From a virus, in IMG/VR virus record IMGVR_UViG_3300020057_000095, positions 1 through 36,277 of that record: DNA of 36,277 bases; one strand, 5' to 3'. Below are positions 1 through 36,277 of this stretch, piece by piece. The position numbers and the translations under genes are program-made. How positions within the stretch are numbered: the first letter of the stretch is position 1; each line of letters opens with the position of its first letter. The notes beneath the pieces are model-generated. The model saw only the letters and a program-made list of their open reading frames with translations, was not told where the DNA came from and did not search any database.

Positions 1-107
1 GCGTCGGTGTGGGCGTAGGCGTGGGCGTAGGTGTGGGCGTCGGCGTAGGTGTAGACGTAGGCGTAGGTGTCGGTGTCGGCGTCGGCGTAGGTGTAGACGT
101 AGGCGGC
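1..107. repeat. 6-bp degenerate tandem repeat, left end
   Basis: The plus strand is a run of GGYGTN units (for example GGCGTA, GGTGTG, GGCGTC), read on the minus strand as RYC-NAC codons. Units differ only at fixed positions and the frame is never broken. The same repeat occupies 36170-36277 in the same orientation, which is why the window ends here: an assembler could not pass it. Confidence 0.9.
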
Positions 108-539
108 TTTTATCTTTTCTTTGTTCTCTCTCAGACATAGTTCCGCTGTCTTCATATCCTGCACAGTGTTTTTTAGACTACGCAGTTCTGCAGCGAGATC
201 AGGCAAGCCCCACATGTCTAAAATGACAGGGTAAAGCGCGGTCACACTGCGCCACATCATTAACCGCTTACGTGCAATCTGTGTCGCGTTGTCTACCCTT
301 GTGCCGACAAGCAGGGGGATAAACGGTTTTAGCAATTGCCTGTGGTCGTCGTTGAACGCGTCATTGAGCGCGATTGCGTATCTGGTCAGGACAGGACATG
401 CGCACTCGGGATGGTCAGACCACGGCTCATTTGCGATGTAGCTGACCATCTGCATAACGCAAGCCGAGCCGGGTGCTTTCCCATTGCCTCGTATCAACCT
501 CTTCGATTCAAGTTCTTTAAGCCGTGCCTGATTAATCAT
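1..539 (-). CDS. N-terminal part of an unknown protein with an Ala/Tyr/His/Asp repeat tract (cut by window edge)
   Basis: Reading from ATG at 539 gives 179 codons and runs off the window at base 1. A GGAAAGGAAGAGGAG Shine-Dalgarno lies just upstream, inside the preceding small ORF. The first ~143 residues are ordinary protein (MINQARLKELESKRL..., then a Cys/His/Trp-containing WSDHPECACPVL segment and a helical, charged region ending KEKIKAA). From base 107 down to 1 the protein becomes alternating small and aromatic/polar residues, mostly Ala/Thr/Val then Tyr/Asp/His, with every codon ending in C. The gene must continue at the right end of the window (36277 to 36104), where the same repeat leads into a helical C-terminus. 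The two ends joined as given are out of frame by one base, so some repeat sequence is missing. Function not recognised. Confidence 0.75.
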   Translation of the reverse strand, partial: MINQARLKELESKRLIRGNGKAPGSACVMQMVSYIANEPWSDHPECACPVLTRYAIALNDAFNDDHRQLLKPFIPLLVGTRVDNATQIARKRLMMWRSVTALYPVILDMWGLPDLAAELRSLKNTVQDMKTAELCLRENKEKIKAAYVYTYADADTDTYAYVYTYADAHTYAHAYAHTD

Positions 540-594
540 TTTTCTCCTCTTCCTTTCCTTTTATCGCATCAAGATCGTTGAGTGCGTCGCTCAT
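532..594 (-). CDS. Small acidic 20-residue ORF linking two genes
   Basis: ATG at 594 overlaps the TGA of the methyltransferase gene (ATGA) and the frame ends at TAA 534-532, inside the start of the next gene. The product would be MSDALNDLDAIKGKEEEKND. Its last codons contain the Shine-Dalgarno of the following gene. It may be a real micro-protein or mainly a translational bridge that carries ribosomes to the next start. Only the coupling geometry supports it. Confidence 0.4.
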   Translation of the reverse strand: MSDALNDLDAIKGKEEEKND

Positions 595-2201
595 TTGCAG
601 AACATTAAAAGAGTTTGATCGCGCTTTGATAGCATAGAGTATTTATCCTTTTCTTGCCCCGTGACTCCGGTTGAAACTAGATTAAAACCAATCGACTCAA
701 TAACTGACATCCATTTTTTTTTGGCTCCATTATTTTTTTCGCTCTGAATTGCGAGCGTTCCACCTGGGATCAGATACTGGTAAACATTTTTAAAAACGGG
801 CACTGTTATTTTATCGTGGTAGTCGTCATACGTTTCGCACCCCGAAAAATGCCCGGTATTTCCGCCGTACTCCTCAAAATTAAAATATGGCGGGCTTGTA
901 TAACAAAGGTCAAATTTTCCGACTAGACTGCTGTCGAAAACCGTAGAGTCAGCACGGCGGATTTCAACGCTGGCACCTGGTGCGCACTGGCATTCTTCGT
1001 TTACAATATTCAGATACTCTTTGAATGCGCGAGCGTTTGTATCTAGTCCTAGATATCGAACCCCATTACGCTTTGCATATAGAGGGCTTTTCCCGTGACC
1101 AGAAAACGGATCAAACCAGCCTAGCTTTGCCAATTTGACAACCTCGCTATCTATTTTCCAGTGCCCGGCAAGAGCAAAAATGTTTTTACGAAATACCGGC
1201 GGGTAAACTAAATTAGATGGGCGCGTAATAGCGGTTTTGCATCCATCCCAAGAATTGCCGTCAAACCCGGTTGATCCGGCGGCGCTTGCGTTGCTTGCGG
1301 CGCTTGCGCGGCTTGCGTAGCTTGCGTCACTTGCGCTGCTTGCGTCACTTGCGCGGCTTGCGTGGCTTGCGCGGCTTGCGTGGCTTGCGGCGCTTGCGCG
1401 GCTTGCGGCGCTTGCGCGGCTTGCGTTGCTTGCCGAAGTTCCAAATCCATACAACCGTTCATTAACACCGCGCGCCGTTCCAGCTTTTACCAGTGCCTCT
1501 TCATGGTTTTTGTACGGATCTGTTCTGACATGTTTGATTGCGTCAAACAGCCATGCTCGCGATGCCGGAACAATAATACCCAATTTTTCAACCCACTCCG
1601 AAACTGACCATTGCTCGTTTTTTTGGGAAAATATCTCTGACTTGACTAGGCTTTTACCATCCTCGTAAAACTCCGCTATGCGGAGGTCCTCGCATTCGCC
1701 CAAATTAATTGAACGAATGATATCGTCAGCACCGTTAACCCTGCATTTGCCGTCAAAATCGATATAACCGTTTTGATAGACGTATTTTGCCGCATACGTT
1801 GCGCGCGATGTGCAGTCAACCCACGTCATCGAGCCGTCTGCTCTGTGAAAATACTGTGATGTATTAGCCCTGGATAACATTGAAAATGCTCCAAGTTGTT
1901 CAAGGCTCGTTATTTCGCCGCCGATATACCCTCTCAGTTCATCTCTAAATTTCTGTTCGTTCCGGATTTTAAGCCTCCGAATACGATAAAATTCCTTAAG
2001 TTGGGTTGCGATTAGTTTTTGGGTTTCGGTAAATTCAGCGGATACCCTTTTATTTTTTCTATAACCGAGCAACACATTCGATGTGTTCCACCAGTTCATA
2101 TTGATAATGTCTCGTACGATGTATCCCAGGCTGTCTTGGTCTACTAAAAACTGTTCGTTTTCAAATAATTCGTTGAGAAATCTTTTGCGGTTATTGGTCA
2201 C
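591..2201 (-). CDS. DNA methyltransferase (SPPY type) with an internal Ala-Ser-X repeat linker
   Basis: A 536-residue protein with GTG start (GTGA overlap with the gene before). The C-terminal third carries the AdoMet-binding motif I, DPFSGHGKSPLY at residues 364-375, and catalytic motif IV, TSPPYF at 435-440, in the order motif I then IV. This is the signature of amino-methyltransferases (N4-cytosine or N6-adenine). The N-terminal ~250 residues are not recognised and may hold target recognition. Residues 257-307 are seventeen consecutive Ala-Ser-X triplets (X = N, R, A, H, D, S, Y), which look like a flexible low-complexity linker between the domains. Likely role: protecting phage DNA from host restriction. 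The base modified cannot be told from sequence. No restriction partner lies nearby. Confidence 0.8.
   Translation of the reverse strand: MTNNRKRFLNELFENEQFLVDQDSLGYIVRDIINMNWWNTSNVLLGYRKNKRVSAEFTETQKLIATQLKEFYRIRRLKIRNEQKFRDELRGYIGGEITSLEQLGAFSMLSRANTSQYFHRADGSMTWVDCTSRATYAAKYVYQNGYIDFDGKCRVNGADDIIRSINLGECEDLRIAEFYEDGKSLVKSEIFSQKNEQWSVSEWVEKLGIIVPASRAWLFDAIKHVRTDPYKNHEEALVKAGTARGVNERLYGFGTSASNASRASAASRASAASHASRASHASRASDASSASDASYASRASAASNASAAGSTGFDGNSWDGCKTAITRPSNLVYPPVFRKNIFALAGHWKIDSEVVKLAKLGWFDPFSGHGKSPLYAKRNGVRYLGLDTNARAFKEYLNIVNEECQCAPGASVEIRRADSTVFDSSLVGKFDLCYTSPPYFNFEEYGGNTGHFSGCETYDDYHDKITVPVFKNVYQYLIPGGTLAIQSEKNNGAKKKWMSVIESIGFNLVSTGVTGQEKDKYSMLSKRDQTLLMFCK
1281..1433 (-). repeat. Seventeen 9-bp repeats (GCA-AGY-NNC) inside the methyltransferase gene
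   Basis: Exactly 17 units encode Ala-Ser-X. The first two codons are almost invariant: GCA, then AGC, or AGT only before GAC. The third codon is always NNC: AAC, CGC, GCC, CAC, GAC, AGC or TAC, never with T in the middle. Unit length is a multiple of three, so gain or loss of units keeps the gene in frame. Confidence 0.93.
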
Positions 2202-2623: not shown

Positions 2624-2771
2624 ATCGCGGGTCTTTCTTGCACGCTATCGCGCCGGGATTTGCGCGGGGGGACTGCGGGCCGGCGTATGGCCCCGTCTTT
2701 TTGGTGCAGCCGTTCATCAGCGCGATGACCGCAAGCGTGAAGGCCAGGGAGCAGAATAGGAGTTTGGTCAT
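2613..2771 (-). CDS. Small lipoprotein, 52 residues
   Basis: ATG at 2771 overlaps the TGA of the C5 methyltransferase gene (ATGA). The product starts MTKLLFCSLAFTLAVIALMNGC, a basic-hydrophobic signal with a lipobox-like MNGC. It continues with a short Pro/Gly/Cys-containing tail (TKKTGPYAGPQSPR...), so a mature peptide of about 31 residues would be lipid-anchored, probably in the outer membrane. Size and composition resemble an o-spanin (Rz1-like) or a superinfection-exclusion lipoprotein. However, it sits among methyltransferase genes rather than the lysis genes, so exclusion is at least as likely. Function not established. Confidence 0.6.
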   Translation of the reverse strand: MTKLLFCSLAFTLAVIALMNGCTKKTGPYAGPQSPRANPGAIACKKDPRCAK

Positions 2772-4018
2772 GGGTTTGCCTTTTGGATAATTGCGTCAAC
2801 AAAATCAATCCTTGACCCGATCCACTCAAGCACCGGAACGGCTATAGAGTTTCCAATGAGGTCATACCTTGGCCCGTCTTTCATTGGTTTGCCGCGGAAC
2901 GGGACAAGCGTGTAGCCATCTGGAATGCCCATTAGGCGCTCCCACTCCAGCGGCGTAAGTTTTCGCACACCTAGGTTTGTCTGGGCGGCCTGATAACCTT
3001 GCCCGGCCTTCCCGACAAGCCCCCCAAGGCAAGGCGTAACGTCGCTAGTCCTGACCTCGCCTCGCTGGTTTTCGGCAATAGCCAATGGGGCAATTATATA
3101 TGCTTTGTCGCCGCCACCCCGGCTTGCACGCAAGCAAAACGAAATCTCCTCGGTTCCGACTTCCGCCATGGCACCGCCATCGCGCCCACGAAAAGCAAGC
3201 GGGACAATCGGAAAACCCCCAGACCCGGTCGGGCTGGCGTCGTGGGCAGCGGTGAGGGTCCCAACAATATCATTCGAGTCAACAACGAAAGTTTCTATTT
3301 CCGCGTCGTGCCGCGCGTTCCGCGAAGTTAGGCAACGGCTCAATTCTTCTGTCAATACGCCATTTACTAATCCTGGGTTATTTCCCGCGGTAGCTCCGCC
3401 GCTTCTTGCAATGCCCGTTGTAAGTGTATTGGCAACGGTCGACCCCTCGCCGCGGATCGGCGCAGGATGCCCTGACAGGCTTTCGGGCTCAAAGAGTACC
3501 GCCGCAGGTGCTTGCCATCCTCTAGAATGTGCGACAACGAAGACACGCTCGCGTCGCTGGGCCAAGCCGAAATATTGAGCGTCCAGGCTTCGGTATGCGA
3601 ACCCATACCCGAGTTCAACCAGCGCCCCAAGGAAGGCACCAAAGTCTTTTCCTTTGTTTGATGACAAGACGCCAGGTACGTTCTCCCAAACCACCCACTC
3701 GGGCCGTAGTCGGTCAACAATCGAAAGAAAGACAAGCGCCAGGTTGCCGCGAGGGTCATCCAATCCTTTCCGCAGGCCCGCAACGCTAAATGACTGGCAT
3801 GGCGTTCCGCCGAGAATAAGTCTGACTGTTTCATTTTTGGCTACCTCGCTGTTAACGACATTTTTCATGTCTCCCAGGTTTGGGGTTTCGGGGTAATGGT
3901 GTTTGATCAGCGCACACGCCGATTTCTTGATTTCAGAAAACCAGGCGGCTTTCCATCCAAGCGATTTCCATGCAAGCGTTGGCGCTTCGGCCCCTGAACA
4001 TACGGTTGCGTACTTCAC
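2768..4018 (-). CDS. DNA (cytosine-C5) methyltransferase
   Basis: 416 residues from the GTG at 4018, which has an AGGGGAGGG ribosome site just upstream. The frame is open to a further GTG at 4117, but that would add 33 residues absent from the family's usual start immediately before motif I. Motifs in order: I (TVCSGAEAPTLAW), IV with catalytic Cys (GGTPCQSFS, ~residues 70-78), VI (ENVPG, ~112), VIII (QRRERVF, ~154), a long variable target-recognition region, IX-like (RKLTPLEWERLMG) and X (GNSIAVPVLEWIG) at the C-terminus. It should methylate C5 of cytosine in a short recognition site and shield the phage genome from host restriction. It is first of three cotranslated genes including the second methyltransferase. 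Confidence 0.93.
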   Translation of the reverse strand: MKYATVCSGAEAPTLAWKSLGWKAAWFSEIKKSACALIKHHYPETPNLGDMKNVVNSEVAKNETVRLILGGTPCQSFSVAGLRKGLDDPRGNLALVFLSIVDRLRPEWVVWENVPGVLSSNKGKDFGAFLGALVELGYGFAYRSLDAQYFGLAQRRERVFVVAHSRGWQAPAAVLFEPESLSGHPAPIRGEGSTVANTLTTGIARSGGATAGNNPGLVNGVLTEELSRCLTSRNARHDAEIETFVVDSNDIVGTLTAAHDASPTGSGGFPIVPLAFRGRDGGAMAEVGTEEISFCLRASRGGGDKAYIIAPLAIAENQRGEVRTSDVTPCLGGLVGKAGQGYQAAQTNLGVRKLTPLEWERLMGIPDGYTLVPFRGKPMKDGPRYDLIGNSIAVPVLEWIGSRIDFVDAIIQKANP

Positions 4019-4156
4019 GCCACCCTCCCCTAACTTTAAAACTTCACGGGCGGCTCTCCCCAGAGCGCCCGCGTCGTGTCTCACGCACGAAACTAATTCA
4101 TTCTGCCTCTGTCTCACCGCATGAAGGCAAAATGCCTTCCCCGTGCGGGCGGGAAA

Positions 4157-25363: not shown

Positions 25364-27667
25364 TCAGTCGCCAAAACTTTGGCGATGAAAACCTTGATCG
25401 CTTTTGGTTGTGTAAAATCCTACGGCCGGTTCAGTCGGTAGTTCGGGGATGACTGCGTTATTATAAACATAATTCATTGCGTCAATTAAGTGATCATTGC
25501 CGTCTTGCTCCCACTCATAAGACGACATTTCTTCTAGTAGCTGCGTGCAGTTCTTGGCGATCTTAAGCCGTCCTGTGCGAAGAGCGTTCACCAGGCGCAA
25601 GATGCGCGCTTGCTTATCGGCTTTGGCGGCGGGTTCAAGGGTCAGCCCTACCTCGCCGTATTCAGCTATGAGCTGCGGGTCTATGTCAGAGAAGTTTGAA
25701 ATGGCAGGGTATGGCTCGCAGTTCTTAATTACGTCCGCGTGCTGTTTGATTAGCAACTCTGAGTGCTTGTACTCGTTATAAATGAGAAAGCATTTCTTTC
25801 GGCGGTTATACGCCATCCAAAGACACGCCGTTGGATCTGGCGAGTACCCGTGGTCAACGCCCTTCCAATGGTAGGCGTGGTCAAGATCGGCTGGGTCCCA
25901 GCGGTCACAAGTGTAGTCTTCGACCGCAAGAGCAAACGCCATGCCTTCAAACACAATGTATTCGGCAAGGATTTCTTGGCGGTAAAGAGGGTCAAGCGGG
26001 CCGTCGTACTCTGATATTAGCTTGTCTCTGCCCTCAGGGCTTATAAATGGGTTTTCAAATACCGTGCAGTGCGATGTGTAGAATTTAAGTTGATCGGCAA
26101 GCGCGCGCTTCTTTAACCGCCAAAAGTGATTTTTGCCCTTGGGGGTTGAACCGTAAATCAACTGCCCATTGAAGTCGGCAAGCTGCGGTACGAGCACGTC
26201 TTTGACAATTGTCGGGTCTCGAAAGAACGCGAACTCATCGGGCGCAATCAACCTCTTGGCGTTACCGCGAAGCTTATCTTTACCGAGGTCCGCACCTTTT
26301 AACGATATCACCGCGCCGCTTGGCGTATGCTTCCACTCTAGGCGTGATTCGTTTGACTTCCACTCACGCGCGCGGTCTTTCAACCGCTGATAGAACTTGT
26401 CCCACATAATTTCACGCGCCTGGCCCTGCGTTAGCGCGATATACATGCAGTCTCTGCCGTGGTCTTCGATATCCTCGATAAATGTTTCGGCGATAAATTC
26501 TGAATTATGGGTCACCAGGCCCGTTGCGGTCAGGTAAAGATGAGTGGGGCTGTCCACCTCTATGTCCCAGCATTTCTCAACTCGCTCATTCCTAAACGTA
26601 ACACCGACGTGGTCAACATTCCCGTTGTTGGCCTTAAGCCTGCCCCATTCGCGGCAATATTTTCTCTTTGGATTTACTAGATAGGGGTTCAATTCTTTAA
26701 GAATGACCCTATTAAACAGAATGTTCTTCACGCCGATCCGGTGAATCGGGCCGTTTTTGTATCTTGGCCTGTCGTCTATGTCGGCTGTCGCCCTGCACTG
26801 CCAAAGGGCAAGAAGCGCGTACTGAAGCGCCTCGATGCAGGACTTTGACTGCATCGCAAGCCTTAGATTGATTTCCTTGCCGTTGAAGGTGACGCTGCCG
26901 TCTGTGTCTATGAGGCCAGCGACAAACTCAAGGAGCGACCGGCGGTCCCACGTCTTGATCACTTCTAGATCACAGAACTTTTCATGAGCAAGCTTCCCCT
27001 TGCACCATTCCTCATAGTGATTACAGTGAATCGGCTTTGTATGCTTCCCGCTCCCGGCCTCCGTACCAAGAGAGTAGGTGTAATTTTTACCTCCGTTTTT
27101 GAATAGCTTCAGTCCAATTATCTTTGCAATCTTATGGGGCGTGTGCGGAGATTCAGAAGAAATATACCATTTATTGCCCGCGGCGGTGCTGCATCCGTTG
27201 CCGAGCATCGCTCCGAGCACATAGGCGTGCGGTTCGTGAACCTTTCCGAGCGGGGCTTTGACCCAAAGGCGTTCGATGGCCAGTGCTTTATACCATTCCT
27301 TCGGCGCCCTAAGCTTCTTGAATCCGTGCTCCCGGTGAATGGTCATCCAACGATGATCAATCGTAGCCGTCTCGTAAACGGTTCCGTTGTTACAGAGATC
27401 CACTACGCGCTTCTTGCCCTGGTATTTTACATGCTTGACGCGGATCGGTTCGCCACGTTCAGAATAGACAAGATCGCCTGGTTTCAGGTCTTCGATTCGC
27501 TTCGGTCCACATGGAGTTATTATCATGGAACCCTCTACCAGACACTTGCCGCTGCGCCTACCCCAATCAAGCACAACGTCTCGCCCAGACTTATAGGCAA
27601 GCCACGCGCGCTCTTGCTTGTCGTGAAAACGGTTAACGTAATATTCAAGCGGGCGCGTGAAGGGCAT
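25364..27667 (-). CDS. terL: Terminase large subunit with an in-frame intein
   Basis: 767 residues from ATG 27667 (MPFTRPLEYYVNRFHDKQERAW), overlapping a small ORF as TAATG; 43 codons upstream are open but not protein-like. The host protein is the DNA-packaging ATPase/nuclease: Walker A GRRSGK|S is split by the intein, Walker B-like KRLIAPDEFAFF follows, then IYGSTPKGKNHFW, and the nuclease part has KGVDHGYSPDPTACLW. Without the 347-residue intein the mature protein would be ~420 residues, a normal TerL size. Splicing must occur for activity because the ATP-binding loop is interrupted. Confidence 0.92.
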   Translation of the reverse strand: MPFTRPLEYYVNRFHDKQERAWLAYKSGRDVVLDWGRRSGKCLVEGSMIITPCGPKRIEDLKPGDLVYSERGEPIRVKHVKYQGKKRVVDLCNNGTVYETATIDHRWMTIHREHGFKKLRAPKEWYKALAIERLWVKAPLGKVHEPHAYVLGAMLGNGCSTAAGNKWYISSESPHTPHKIAKIIGLKLFKNGGKNYTYSLGTEAGSGKHTKPIHCNHYEEWCKGKLAHEKFCDLEVIKTWDRRSLLEFVAGLIDTDGSVTFNGKEINLRLAMQSKSCIEALQYALLALWQCRATADIDDRPRYKNGPIHRIGVKNILFNRVILKELNPYLVNPKRKYCREWGRLKANNGNVDHVGVTFRNERVEKCWDIEVDSPTHLYLTATGLVTHNSEFIAETFIEDIEDHGRDCMYIALTQGQAREIMWDKFYQRLKDRAREWKSNESRLEWKHTPSGAVISLKGADLGKDKLRGNAKRLIAPDEFAFFRDPTIVKDVLVPQLADFNGQLIYGSTPKGKNHFWRLKKRALADQLKFYTSHCTVFENPFISPEGRDKLISEYDGPLDPLYRQEILAEYIVFEGMAFALAVEDYTCDRWDPADLDHAYHWKGVDHGYSPDPTACLWMAYNRRKKCFLIYNEYKHSELLIKQHADVIKNCEPYPAISNFSDIDPQLIAEYGEVGLTLEPAAKADKQARILRLVNALRTGRLKIAKNCTQLLEEMSSYEWEQDGNDHLIDAMNYVYNNAVIPELPTEPAVGFYTTKSDQGFHRQSFGD
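26504..27544 (-). mobile_element. Intein with LAGLIDADG homing endonuclease in terL
   Basis: It begins with Cys right after the GRRSGK of Walker A (CLVEGSMIITPCGPKRIEDLKPGDLVYS: intein blocks A and the GD-V motif) and ends with the block F/G sequence CWDIEVDSPTHLYLTATGLVTHN followed by Ser. The TIDHRWMT segment has the block B His. A DOD endonuclease lies in the middle: YVLGAMLGNG and FVAGLIDTDGSVTF are the two LAGLIDADG helices. Cys1, penultimate His, terminal Asn and Ser+1 are all present, so both splicing and homing look intact. Confidence 0.92.
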
Positions 27668-27741
27668 TATCTGGGGCCGCGCCCTGCGCCAACAATAAAT
27701 AACAGAGCAAATAGAAACCCTGCGAGGCACGCGGTCATCAT
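27667..27741 (-). CDS. Tiny membrane peptide between two terminase-region genes
   Basis: 24 residues, MMTACLAGFLFALLFIVGAGRGPR: one hydrophobic helix and a basic tail. Its ATG overlaps the stop of the previous gene and its TAA overlaps the terL ATG (TAATG). Either a real micro-protein or a coupling ORF. terL itself has no strong ribosome site, which favours a coupling function. Confidence 0.35.
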   Translation of the reverse strand: MMTACLAGFLFALLFIVGAGRGPR

Positions 27742-28031
27742 TCCTTGTCTCGCTTTGCGGTCTGCTCTCGATATTGACGGTCGTAATCCAAAGCACTCAT
27801 AATCTCGAAATGGATCATCTCGTTACCGAGCCTAATGGTTACCTCGCCTTCTTTTTTCAGGTGATAAACTTGCTCGCCGGTTAGGCCTGGAACATCGCAC
27901 GCGGCCTTACCTGGCGGATCGGGATATCTGATTTGATCGCAGATGGGGGAGCCCACTTTAACGGGATTACCGTTTCCATCGATAAAGAACTTTTGCTTGA
28001 TGCGCGTGAGAACAGAACCAATATGCGTCAT
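27738..28031 (-). CDS. Unknown protein between TerS and TerL
   Basis: 97 residues: MTHIGSVLTRIKQKFFIDGNGNPVKVGSPICDQIRYPDPPGK... and a helical charged end (NEMIHFEIMSALDYDRQYREQTAKRDKE). ATGA overlap with the TerS gene. Position suggests a packaging or head-assembly accessory. No motif recognised. Confidence 0.65.
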   Translation of the reverse strand: MTHIGSVLTRIKQKFFIDGNGNPVKVGSPICDQIRYPDPPGKAACDVPGLTGEQVYHLKKEGEVTIRLGNEMIHFEIMSALDYDRQYREQTAKRDKE

Positions 28032-31326: not shown

Positions 31327-32273
31327 AGCATTTCTCTTTCGATGTAGCAGGTCCCGAAATTCTCAAACATGATCCGCCGCCCGACGTAGTTGCCTCGGCG
31401 CCTCAGCTTTGCAAACCTGAGTTCTCGAAAACGCTGCGAGGGGTACTGGGCCTGGTCCTCTTCTGCGGTGCGGTTAAACAGCAGCACGTTGTGTGCCTCT
31501 TGAACTGCGGTGCTAGAGCCTTTGATATCGAACTCTGATTCAACCCGCCCGTTTTCGGTCTTCTTTGGATGCATGACCATGATCAAGTGCATGTCGATGC
31601 GTTTGCAAAACATGATCAGCTCGTGGACCGTCTTATCCATTTCCACTACCGCATTGCGTTCGGCAGTTACCTCCATGAAAAAGTTCAGATTATCCAGCAT
31701 CGCAATCTGGCAGCCGTGCACATCGTGGGCTGATTGCAGTTCGGCGATAAGCTGCTGACAAGAAATCCGGTTATCAAACAGTGACAGCATCAGTGTGTCT
31801 GTGTGCAACAGGTGGTCGAATTCGTGCTTGATTTGCGCAATGCGCTCAAAACTCAGTGACTCGCCCGTGTTGATGTCTTCGCTGAGCATTGCTGACATAG
31901 TGCGCTTCACGAAATCGGTTGCGCCGGTTTCAACGCTTGCGACAAAGTGCTTTGTCTTCTGCATCAAGAGCTGAAAACTTAGGTTTGCTAAAAACGTGGT
32001 CTTGCCGGTTCCGGTCGCCCCACAGAGTATCGTAAATTCGCGCGCACGTAGGCCGCCAGTCGCTTTTGTGAAGTTCGGCCATAGTCTGACCGGGGTTGAT
32101 GGATAAGGGCTCAGCAGCTCGCTGTGGGCCTCAAATGCGATATCTCGAATTGGACGCATGTGTCCGTGAACGCTTTCTGCTGCTAAGGGTTCTGGCTCTG
32201 GTGGCTCTGACACGACGCATCCCTGGCCCGCGAGCGTGTTGAGCGCGAAGTCCTCAAATGTTTTTTGCGGCAT
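31323..32273 (-). CDS. Replicative helicase-type RecA-fold ATPase (DnaB/gp4-like)
   Basis: 316 residues. After a ~70-residue linker, RLWPNFTKATGGLRAREFTILCGATGTGKTTFLANLSF gives the typical entry and Walker A (GATGTGKT, residues 85-92). CQIAMLDNLNFF is Walker B and HLIMVMHPKKT the H2-like sensor. RELRFAKLRRRGNYVGRRIMF near the end carries the arginine-rich DnaB/twinkle signature. It lacks an N-terminal primase domain and is shorter than DnaB, like other phage helicases of this class. It unwinds DNA at the fork; the overlapping upstream gene is probably its loader/initiator. Confidence 0.85.
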   Translation of the reverse strand: MPQKTFEDFALNTLAGQGCVVSEPPEPEPLAAESVHGHMRPIRDIAFEAHSELLSPYPSTPVRLWPNFTKATGGLRAREFTILCGATGTGKTTFLANLSFQLLMQKTKHFVASVETGATDFVKRTMSAMLSEDINTGESLSFERIAQIKHEFDHLLHTDTLMLSLFDNRISCQQLIAELQSAHDVHGCQIAMLDNLNFFMEVTAERNAVVEMDKTVHELIMFCKRIDMHLIMVMHPKKTENGRVESEFDIKGSSTAVQEAHNVLLFNRTAEEDQAQYPSQRFRELRFAKLRRRGNYVGRRIMFENFGTCYIEREML

Positions 32274-32949
32274 TGATCATCTCGTCTCTTTTGCGGCGGA
32301 ACTCTTCGACGTGGGTTTGGTCTGCCTTGAACGCATCCAGTTCGGGCTGCGGCAGCCCTTCGTCTGCGTAGTCGGTCCATCGGCCCATGAAAGTTCCGAA
32401 TTGGAGCGTGTACTTTTTCTCGGTCTTATCTTTGCGACACATGGCGGCGTATTTGTCGACCGCTTTTGAAAGGCGATCGAAGTCGGCCTGCGAGAGGATT
32501 TGGTTTCCGCAGATTTTCATCCCCAGGGTCTTTCCCTCCTTGCGGGGGTATTTTTTGTAGAGAGTTTCAAAATCAAAATCATGTTCTGTCTGTCTGTCTG
32601 TCTGTCTGTCTGTAGCCGCGGATTCCAGGCAATGCCTGTCATTGCCTGGCAATTCCCGCGGATTCCAGGCAATCAGATTTGAGTTCGCCAACTCCGCTAT
32701 ATCTTTGTCGATTTTGTCAGCGCTCTTTTTACGCAGCAAGACAAGGTAATCTTGACGCAACGCAAACTCCCCGCCGCTGCATTTTGATGCCTCGCAAAGC
32801 AAAAACACGAACGTGAGTTGTGCTGATTCGCTCAACCCAAATACCGATTGATCGAAGAAAAAGCTGTTCTGAAAGCGAAACCAAACGAAATTACCGCGAT
32901 CAGCCCGCTCGTTATATTTATCCCAGTTAAGAACCTTAATCGTGTACAT
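32254..32949 (-). CDS. Replication initiator/helicase-loader-like protein
   Basis: 231 residues. The N-terminal ~90 residues (MYTIKVLNWDKYNERADRG...SAQLTFVFLLCEASKCSGGEFALRQDYLVLLRKKSADKIDKDIAELANSNLI) have the layout of a phage winged-helix initiator domain. The C-terminus (FETLYKKYPRKEGKT...YAAMCRKDK...QFGTFMGRWTDY) matches the end of many phage replication proteins. Between them residues ~92-121 are encoded by repeated DNA: two 18-bp repeats and (CTGT)7. The gene overlaps the helicase start. The arrangement recalls lambda O, whose gene contains the origin between its two domains. Confidence 0.72.
   Translation of the reverse strand: MYTIKVLNWDKYNERADRGNFVWFRFQNSFFFDQSVFGLSESAQLTFVFLLCEASKCSGGEFALRQDYLVLLRKKSADKIDKDIAELANSNLIAWNPRELPGNDRHCLESAATDRQTDRQTEHDFDFETLYKKYPRKEGKTLGMKICGNQILSQADFDRLSKAVDKYAAMCRKDKTEKKYTLQFGTFMGRWTDYADEGLPQPELDAFKADQTHVEEFRRKRDEMINAAKNI
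32586..32613. repeat. (CTGT)7 tetranucleotide repeat inside the initiator gene
   Basis: Seven perfect CTGT units on the plus strand, read in the gene as Thr-Asp-Arg-Gln repeats. Because the unit is four bases, a gain or loss of one unit shifts the frame, which is the classical basis of slippage-driven phase variation. Confidence 0.95.
32616..32673. repeat. Iteron-like 18-bp direct repeats with inverted copy
   Basis: CCGCGGATTCCAGGCAAT occurs at 32616-32633 and again at 32656-32673 (40-bp period). Between them ATTGCCTGGCAATTCCCGCGG is an imperfect inverted copy, so each half can fold. AT-rich DNA (32550-32583) lies next to it. This fits an origin with initiator-binding sites. Confidence 0.85.
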
Positions 32950-33054: not shown

Positions 33055-33342
33055 TCATTCTAAAACTCCGCTGCCGGAGCCGGAGCAGGAGCCGTAGCCG
33101 AATCCGTAGCCGATGCCACCGCCGATGCCTCCGCCGAATCCACCACCAAATCCGCCGCTGCCGCCGATGCCGCCTCCACCACCGAATCCATCACCATCGC
33201 CGCCTCCGGAGCCGACGCCATCACCATCACCAATTCTGCCTATGCCTCTGCCGTCGCCGCAACCAAAACCATTGCATGTGTTGAATCCGTCGCCGAATCC
33301 GCCGCCGAATCCGCTGCCGCCACCCTCTATTGCGCCGGTCAT
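33055..33342 (-). CDS. Glycine-rich repeat cassette protein, copy B
   Basis: 95 residues. MTGAIEGGG at the start and SGSGVLE at the end are shared with the other two copies. The body alternates Gly with Phe, Ser, Asp, Ile, Tyr and others, and is the most diverged of the three. ATG overlaps the stop of copy A (TTAGAATGA) and its own stop is again TTAGAATGA. No signal or enzyme motif. It may be a disordered structural or decoy peptide, or selected mainly as DNA. The 105 bases between it and the initiator gene hold only short open stretches and a G7 run beside the next ATG. Confidence 0.55.
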   Translation of the reverse strand: MTGAIEGGGSGFGGGFGDGFNTCNGFGCGDGRGIGRIGDGDGVGSGGGDGDGFGGGGGIGGSGGFGGGFGGGIGGGIGYGFGYGSCSGSGSGVLE

Positions 33343-33551
33343 TCTAAAACTCCGCTGCCGTAGCCGGAGCCGGAGCCGTAGCCGGCTCCGGAGCCGCTGC
33401 CGGAGCAGGAGCCGGAGCCGGAGCCGGAGCAGGAGCCGTAGCCGTAGCCGAATCCGCTGCCGGAGCCGGAGCAGGCGCCGGAGCCGGAGCAGGCTCCGGA
33501 GCCGCTGCCGGAGCAGGAGTAGATGCCGCCACCCTCTATTACGCCATTCAT
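33339..33551 (-). CDS. Glycine-rich repeat cassette protein, copy A
   Basis: 70 residues from the ATG at 33551 (MNGVIEGGGIYS...) overlapping the previous gene's TGA; a frame extension upstream is part of that other gene. The body is Gly/Cys alternating with Ser, Ala, Tyr, Phe from GGN-NNC units, ending SGYGSGVLE. A second frame in the same strand (Pro-Ala repeats) is also open, but the shared edges MNGVIEGGG and SGVLE fix this one. Confidence 0.6.
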   Translation of the reverse strand: MNGVIEGGGIYSCSGSGSGACSGSGACSGSGSGFGYGYGSCSGSGSGSCSGSGSGAGYGSGSGYGSGVLE

Positions 33552-33985
33552 TCTAGTTTCCGCCCAAGCGCGTCCGCCCATTGACCGCCACCTGCGTCTC
33601 TAAATTCGCGTATCGTCATCGTACAAGTATCATCAAGCCCACGCTCGTCTAACCACGTTTTTACGCCGCTACGACACGCCCGTGTTAGTCGTTTGAACAG
33701 ACTGACTGAAAACCGAAAATGTTCAGCCCGATATTCCAACTTTTCTTCGGCTGTTAGCGGCTGGGATTGCCCCAACTTTTCGCGGGCAGCATCGATAGCC
33801 TCGACCACGCTATCGCCGTGGGCACATGCTGGTACTCCGGGCAGCTCCACAAAGTAAGATTTTTTTCCTGCCGCATCATAGAGTATTTCGACAATCTCTC
33901 CGCCTGGTGCTGAGAAATTTTCGCCCTCGGTCCACGAATTTAAACCATCGCGATATGCGGGAATGCGATTTTTATTTGCGGTCAT
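33548..33985 (-). CDS. Unknown 145-residue accessory protein
   Basis: From ATG 33985 (MTANKNRIPAYRDGLN), ATGA overlap with the DUF6948-like gene. N-terminus beta-rich (SAPGGEIVEILYDAAGKKSYFVELPGVPACAHG), C-terminus helical with RAEHFRFSVSLFKRLTRACRSGVKTWLDERGLDD. Its stop (CTAGAATGA) resembles the 3' edge of the glycine-rich cassettes, and copy A starts inside it. Function not recognised. Confidence 0.62.
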   Translation of the reverse strand: MTANKNRIPAYRDGLNSWTEGENFSAPGGEIVEILYDAAGKKSYFVELPGVPACAHGDSVVEAIDAAREKLGQSQPLTAEEKLEYRAEHFRFSVSLFKRLTRACRSGVKTWLDERGLDDTCTMTIREFRDAGGGQWADALGRKLE

Positions 33986-34317
33986 TTTATAGGCCCGTAG
34001 TTCAGCACTGACTGCCACGCGCCATCCGTCATTTCAGCGATCTCTAGTCCGGGCGGGTTTACGATCGTGACAGCCGGCAACACAGCCCCGATGCTGTGTT
34101 CTGCGTCAGGTTTCAAACCGTTTGCCGCAACGTCGGAAATCGAACCAGTGCTGTCTCGAGTGTACACGCGCCACAGCCTGCGAGCTGACTTTAACTGGAT
34201 CGTGCTCGTCATAAAATCAACCGCGACAACAATCCCGGCGTGTACCCCGGCTACGTTTGCGCGAACAATTACAGATTTACCTACCATGCTGTCTTGCAGA
34301 CTATTTTTAGTTTCCAT
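33982..34317 (-). CDS. DUF6948-like accessory protein
   Basis: 111 residues; AAAGGAGG precedes ATG. Pattern MVGKSVIVRANVAGVHAGIVVAVDFMTSTIQLKSARRLWRVYTRD, then a Ser/Asp-rich strand and VNPPGLEIAEMTDGAWQSVLNYGPIK. This is the usual shape of DUF6948 proteins in phage accessory regions (small beta domain, 'SARRLWR' core). From memory, relatives may carry low-complexity Gly/Tyr tails, which would match the cassettes next door. Role unknown. Two very short frames chained by ATGA (MTQAHGPK, MNNKQKPSKEAVTNGN) lie just upstream and were not called. Confidence 0.65.
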   Translation of the reverse strand: METKNSLQDSMVGKSVIVRANVAGVHAGIVVAVDFMTSTIQLKSARRLWRVYTRDSTGSISDVAANGLKPDAEHSIGAVLPAVTIVNPPGLEIAEMTDGAWQSVLNYGPIK

Positions 34318-34376: not shown

Positions 34377-34559
34377 TCATTCTAAAACTCCGCTGCCGGA
34401 GCCGCTGCCGGCGCCGGAGCCAACGCCGACGCCTACGCCTACGCCTACGCCTACGCCGTAGCCGTCGCCGGAGCCGTAGCCGACGCCTACGCCTACGCCT
34501 ACGCCGTAGCCGAATCCGCTGCCGGAGTAGGTGCCGCCACCCTCTATTACGCCGGTCAT
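34377..34559 (-). CDS. Glycine-rich repeat cassette protein, copy C
   Basis: 60 residues: MTGVIEGGGTYSGSGFGYG, then Val-Gly runs and a SGSGVLE end. ATG overlaps the stop of 34556-34786 and its own stop continues as ATGACC. The Val-Gly part is encoded by GTAGGC, which is the reverse complement of the GCCTAC hexamer that encodes Ala-Tyr in the gene across the window ends. Confidence 0.58.
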   Translation of the reverse strand: MTGVIEGGGTYSGSGFGYGVGVGVGVGYGSGDGYGVGVGVGVGVGVGSGAGSGSGSGVLE

Positions 34560-36103: not shown

Positions 36104-36277
36104 TCATTCTTTGACCTCAATCGCCATGCGTAGTGTCTCTATGAGAACGTGTGCCAGCTTTTCCCGCAAGGCGTCGGCGTAGGTGTGGGCGTCGGCGTAG
36201 GCGTGGGCGTAGGTGTGGGCGTAGGTGTGGGCGTCGGTGTGGGCGTAGGCGTCGGCGTAGGCGTGGGCGTAGGTGTG
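36104..36277 (-). CDS. C-terminal part of the repeat-tract protein that starts at 539
   Basis: Fifty-seven codons plus TGA (36106-36104) are open to the window edge. The first 36 codons continue the alternating [Ala/Thr]-[Tyr/His/Asp] tract. They are followed by 21 residues, LREKLAHVLIETLRMAIEVKE, that look like an amphipathic helix. Codon use in the tract (GCC/ACC with TAC/CAC/GAC) matches the tract at bases 1-107, so both fragments are very probably one gene interrupted by the artificial linear ends. The stop overlaps an ATGA that could restart translation of the next short reading frame. No function is recognised; a repeat linker between two helical segments is all the sequence shows. Confidence 0.7.
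   Translation of the reverse strand, partial: HTYAHAYADAYAHTDAHTYAHTYAHAYADAHTYADALREKLAHVLIETLRMAIEVKE
36170..36277. repeat. 6-bp degenerate tandem repeat, right end
   Basis: Continuation of the repeat at 1-107, same orientation and units. A 24-base stretch at the extreme right end (36254-36277) is identical to bases 12-35. Because everything here is repetitive, that match does not prove a true terminal redundancy. True copy number is unknown. Confidence 0.9.

Follow-up and report, generated by a model that had tools for sequence, protein, structure and literature searches.

An Ala-Ser-X repeat tract with strict NNC codons in a phage DNA methyltransferase is probably an interdomain linker built by unit duplication

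A repeat in which only one codon per unit varies, and always as NNC, raises the question of whether a dedicated mutagenesis system acts on it or whether the pattern has another origin. Such a tract was noticed in a first-pass annotation of the uncultivated virus record IMGVR_UViG_3300020057_000095, which likened it to diversity-generating retroelements (DGRs) and named composition bias during repeat growth as the other possible cause. The record carries phage portal, capsid, and terminase genes and was analyzed over its whole length of 36,277 bp (here called the window). The tract lies in a gene whose product matches PF01555 (N6_N4_Mtase) over residues 431 to 513; the features of the locus are listed in Table 1.

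Table 1. Features of the methyltransferase locus (coordinates of the window)
Feature	Position	Strand	Evidence
Two-domain phage DNA methyltransferase ORF, 536 aa, GTG start	591..2201	-	ORF call; PF01555, E 6.4e-8; homologs
N-terminal domain, residues 1-240	1482..2201	-	AlphaFold2 mean pLDDT 83; conserved in 10 aligned sequences
Ala-Ser-X tract, 17 x 9 bp, residues 257-307	1281..1433	-	Codon reading; Tandem Repeats Finder; pLDDT 22-36; homologs
Catalytic domain: motif X-like segment, then motif I, motif IV	591..1190	-	Alignment; PDB profiles; Foldseek
Neighboring C5-cytosine DNA methyltransferase	2768..4117	-	PF00145, E 1.2e-48

Read on the minus strand from 1433 to 1281, the tract consists of in-frame GCA-AGY-NNC units, with GCA and a C-ending X codon in 17 of 17 and the serine codon being AGC in 15 and AGT in 2. 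The middle base of the X codon is limited to A (seven units), G (six), and C (four), as had been described, and Tandem Repeats Finder detected periods of 9, 18, and 27 bp. Given the encoded residues and the phage's own codon usage, 17 C-ending X codons are very improbable (log10 P = -6.2). However, the 17 units comprise only 7 distinct types, and when each X codon is counted once, log10 P falls to -2.3; the strict NNC thus largely reflects shared descent of copied units. Since AGT is always paired with GAC, the units appear to have been copied whole. Exact unit repeats at a lag of two, i.e., 18 bp (RARA, HRHR, and DSD), numbered 6, versus 2.1 in shuffled tracts (p = 0.005, uncorrected for the six lags and nine tracts analyzed), and this 18-bp periodicity was clear in the window tract only, the other tracts giving a weaker signal or none. 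Composition bias during repeat growth therefore survives in one form, as the copying of a few unit types (7 of 17).

A search of viral contigs gave nine loci, seven of which have a complete reading frame. These seven full-length homologs are 50 to 67% identical over the alignment, with none above 67% to the window protein, and all seven have an Ala-Ser-X tract at the same place, as does a truncated homolog (L130; 25 units) in a Clostridia metagenome-assembled genome (MAG) contig. The tracts have 14 (L003 and L004), 15 (L005), 18 (L007), 26 (L008), 32 (L006), and 38 (L002) units, lengths that, being taken from metagenome assemblies, could reflect assembly errors; the window itself ends in repeats, and one further viral fragment, L159, which was added by a wider alignment search, starts inside the linker region. 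The DNA dialect differs from tract to tract. GCA-AGC-NNC is used, with exceptions, in the window and in L002 to L004, GCC-AGC-NNY in L005, and GCA-AGT-NNT in L006 (27% GC), where X ends in T in 32 of 32 units; L007 has GCG-AGT-NNT and then GCT-TCG-NNN, L008 is mixed, and L130 has GCA-AGT with mixed X codons ending in A, T, or C. Since the X codon of relatives ends in T or in mixed bases, NNC is not a rule. The peptide Ala-Ser-X is constant although its codons differ, including a switch of the Ser codon from AGY to TCG with both found within one tract, which argues for selection on the protein. Judged by these alignments, NNC is a local dialect and not a signature of mutagenesis, and what is conserved is the protein pattern. 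A strict NNC in a repeat can thus be a spelling habit of copied units, and comparing the dialects of relatives is a test that separates inherited spelling from mutagenesis. The first-pass annotation had proposed to judge diversification by unit order and by the spread of variation over codon positions, and the outcome was mixed: the unit order is different in all relatives and the variation is unequal across codon positions, so that turnover is indeed rapid, although the DGR idea does not hold (see below).

Beyond this group, a Bacilli MAG contig (L131) encodes two tandem distant paralogs, the first detected being 28% identical, which by reading adjoin GroEL-like and SbcC-like genes. At the place of the tract they have Ser/Ala/Thr-rich linkers of about 110 and about 455 amino acids without a DNA tandem repeat. 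As far as these homologs go, a long low-complexity linker is the constant, and the Ala-Ser-X form is confined to the nearer group. Plasmids gave one weak match, to the catalytic domain only, and from two bacterial classes, with about 390 genomes searched in each, came just two weak matches, of which one looks by eye like a PAS/histidine kinase; in these searches, no close genomic relatives in which gain or loss of units could be watched were found. When viral contigs were searched for GCNAGYNNN arrays with the X codon left open, at least 150 were found, nearly all with uniform or nearly uniform X. Among the arrays listed, the clear exceptions with diverse X were the methyltransferase family and one contig (L111/G010). 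X diversity is therefore a property of the methyltransferase gene family.

The window methyltransferase has both a SAM motif I (FDPFSGHG, residues 363 to 370) and a catalytic motif IV (TSPPYF, residues 435 to 440), which are conserved in the homolog alignment, motif I with the variants CGWG and LGWG in L005 and L006. Beta-class N4/N6 methyltransferases have the motif order IV...TRD...X-I. The window enzyme departs from this order, with motif I upstream of motif IV: in profile matches to solved enzymes, the motif I segment aligns with DpnA/MboIIA-type enzymes in their C-terminal part, and the motif IV segment aligns with 2zie in its N-terminal part. Methyltransferase folds were among the Foldseek matches of the catalytic domain. 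From motifs and profiles, the catalytic part is circularly permuted and of the N4/N6 type. In L007 (2809-5421), FDPF and CGHG of the methyltransferase are separated by a large intein-like insert, which starts with CVDGETEYL; LAGLIDADG_3 was weakly matched in one family member. In L010/L160/L148 (G009), the methyltransferase gene lacks residues ~43 to 476; all that is left is its beginning and its end, which are in different frames.

The N-terminal domain was confidently modeled by AlphaFold2 to about residue 231, but Foldseek found no match for its fold in PDB or BFVD, and a search of 50,697 phage records gave no match either. Given the permuted order of the catalytic part and the lack of a recognition domain downstream of motif IV, target recognition would fall most naturally to the N-terminal domain; as its fold has no counterpart in the two structure databases, we infer, rather than assign, a role that is possibly target recognition or DNA binding. 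Between the two confident domains, residues 241 to 322 had pLDDT values of 22 to 36. This model rested on a shallow alignment of 8 rows, which makes the low pLDDT weak evidence for disorder of the linker. The tract was said to sit exactly between the N-terminal region and the catalytic domain, and indeed it starts and ends in the stretch between residue 231 and motif I.

Taken together, the tract of this two-domain phage methyltransferase is probably a hydrophilic interdomain linker, likely disordered, that was built by unit duplication. It would join the N-terminal domain without a known fold, a putative recognition domain, to the N4/N6-type catalytic domain, and its job would be tethering with reach and solubility. 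Through slippage or unequal recombination, units of 9 and 18 bp would be duplicated or lost, always in frame, so that the tract grows and shrinks. Selection at the protein level would keep Ala-Ser, whereas the third place would tolerate or favor a changing small or polar residue (R, N, D, H, S, or A), and the strict NNC of the window genome would be the third base inherited by the copied units. In the family described here, a permuted catalytic domain is combined with an N-terminal domain that has no known fold, and the two domains of these phage methyltransferases are connected by a hypervariable linker that every complete close relative retains.

Phages are known to have low-complexity regions, in which Ala is enriched and Arg and Asn are underrepresented (PMC6821194). 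The window tract is like such linkers and intragenic tandem repeats in being short-period and Ala-rich, in lying between folded domains of a phage protein, and in pointing to repeat copying. It differs from the surveyed regions in that one-third of its residues are hypervariable, in being rich in Arg and Asn, and in being retained at the same position by divergent homologs although their codons have changed. The His-Xaa-Ser repeat protein HxsA (NCBIfam) also has a three-residue repeat with one variable place, but the match of the window protein was weak (E 0.003; 18 versus 55 bits, far below the family cutoff), and the tract has no His at a fixed place; this match and that to Plasmodium_HRP were rejected as compositional, both being below the cutoffs. 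A literature search found no paper describing the Ala-Ser-X tract and none on Ala-Ser tandem repeats in phages.

A passive linker predicts neither faster change at X than at the fourfold-degenerate Ala site nor a near absence of Lys, Glu, and Gln. Among the 199 X residues of the nine tracts pooled, R (49), N (28), D (27), H (22), S (21), and A (20) dominate, and K (2), E (1), and Q (1) are rare. Compared with the rest of the same proteins, the preference for R over K (p = 7e-18) and for D over E (p = 4e-8) is strong, although the units are not independent. Because Arg is encoded by CGC or CGA depending on the tract and X in L130 ends in A, T, or C, it is the residue and not the NNC codon that is preferred. 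Counted on minimum spanning trees of the units in the nine tracts, position 7 had 40 events, position 8 had 22, and position 9 had 14. The first two positions of X thus account for 62 minimum events, versus 6 at the fourfold-degenerate Ala site, where a 2:1 ratio is expected (p ~2e-6). This excess is a hint that the X residues are under diversifying selection, e.g., for escape from a host or rival factor or for binding of changing partners. However, minimum-spanning-tree counts on repeated units are crude, homogenization by copying could mask synonymous change, and in the window tract alone the excess is not significant (p = 0.06). We consider diversifying selection at X unlikely, and slightly more so the fuller proposal that every third residue of the linker is diversified faster than neutral sites by repeat turnover plus diversifying selection, without a retroelement. 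If that were true, the linker would be a hypervariable interaction surface, e.g., for evading host or rival-phage factors or for choosing partners; if the excess at X is real, the family would be a naturally occurring case in which to study how variable protein surfaces arise from repeat turnover and selection with no dedicated machinery.

The tract could also be a minisatellite, selfish or neutral, that a permissive domain junction tolerates and that contributes nothing to function. The units duplicate, sequence and length drift freely, and there are other repeat tracts in the same genome, all of which would be expected of a minisatellite. However, the tract is found at one place in all eight close homologs that reach that far, despite the different DNA dialects, and neither the conservation of Ala-Ser across a switch of Ser codons nor the residue preference at X is readily reconciled with neutrality, which makes this explanation improbable.

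The idea that repeat number tunes the linker had been put forward as well. Its structural basis stands, i.e., the position between two domains and a length that differs among homologs (14 to 38 units in complete tracts); that unit number sets the spacing of the recognition and catalytic domains, and thus the methylated sequence, is doubtful. There is a precedent: in type IC HsdS, two versus three TAEL repeats shift the recognition gap from N6 to N7, a well-documented case of control of methylation specificity by repeat number (PMC3874165). As in EcoR124I/EcoR124II and EcoDXXI, there is a variable number of short in-frame repeats in a DNA methylation enzyme. However, the TAEL units are identical and helical, extend a rigid helix, and lie between the two recognition domains of a separate subunit (PMC3874165), whereas the window units differ, have no predicted helix or other ordered structure, and connect the catalytic domain with a putative recognition domain within a single polypeptide. 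With no ordered structure predicted, a gain or loss of 3 residues in ~50 to 110 should shift the geometry little. The accompanying suggestion, that the variable residues alter the choice of target, gained no support.

That a DGR or a remnant of one mutagenizes the X codons can practically be discarded. As in DGR variable repeats, variation is concentrated at chosen codon positions, here two positions of one codon. However, a DGR randomizes template adenines wherever they are present in the variable repeat, and 34 of 34 adenines in GCA-AGY are unchanged over the 17 units. In addition, the third base of the variable codon differs between lineages, X ending in T, A, or G in relatives. A search with PF00078, for which three named genomes served as positive controls, confirmed that the window has no reverse transcriptase, and the domain was also absent from ten other records, which may be fragments. 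In agreement with the first-pass annotation, there is no template repeat in the window: a six-frame search gave one Ala-Ser-X tract only and no second GCA-AGY-NNC tract. The DGR was thus rejected on anatomy, i.e., the invariant adenines and the missing reverse transcriptase.

Just as remote is the idea that the tract doubles as a guide-like repeat RNA in the manner of VIPR vrRNAs, which are noncoding 5-nt YNNGG repeats with a GGY core and share with the tract the logic of a fixed core alternating with hypervariable dinucleotides (PMC13142463), since the window units are coding, have a period of 9 and not 5 nt and the core GCAAGY instead of GGY, and lie in an open, protein-conserved frame whose third base varies in relatives, and since a search with the leading 10 NN pairs, made under the one-base-skip rule, produced a single match, in a 60.8% GC stretch, about what is estimated for chance, with the next 7 pairs all mismatching.

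With respect to the source genome, the C-terminal part of the window terminase had matches in only 2 of 10 other records, at 30% identity and with several records being fragments; on this comparison, the methyltransferase gene may move between phages. The terminase large subunit of the window (25364-27796, minus strand) is split by an intein with Hint and LAGLIDADG domains. The record ends, 1-105 and 36170-36277, carry the same kind of 6-bp (A/T/V)(Y/D/H) repeat, and an ORF at 3-539 (minus strand) may run on across them, so that a circular genome, opened within a repeat, may underlie the record. A TCTG tetranucleotide repeat (seven copies; 32585-32613) inside the ORF at 32254-32949 (minus strand) is a possible site of phase variation.

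Other small repeat ORFs were seen in the same material. Three in the window encode Gly-X repeats (33055-33342, 33339-33581, and 34380-34559; minus strand). They share the head M[TN]G[VA]IEGGG and the tail GSGVLE, and two of them are joined by an overlapping stop/start, ATGA. A DUF6948 gene (33982-34317, minus strand; E 8.6e-11) lies near them. Related multicopy Gly-X families are present in G001 (L135, at ~1.2 and 3.7-4.5 kb), with X codons mostly NNG and GVL[TA] tails, and in G006 (L140, ~7.0-8.4 kb), with NNC and GVLK/Q; at ~8.4 kb of L140, by reading, the end of a similar DUF6948-like gene precedes the first Gly-X ORF. The conservation of GVL with third-base changes suggests that the Gly-X ORFs are coding. 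The G010 contig, to which L111 belongs, has twelve small ORFs (L149 to L151) with hypervariable Ala-Ser-X repeats spelled GCC-AGC-NNC, e.g., at 357, 8524, 18588, 42876, 43676-44431, and 54854. They have a near-invariant head, M[MT]VA[TI]LA, and mostly an RLRGG-like tail, and a role as RNA is possible for them; the tail holds a Shine-Dalgarno-like AAGAGG for the next ORF.
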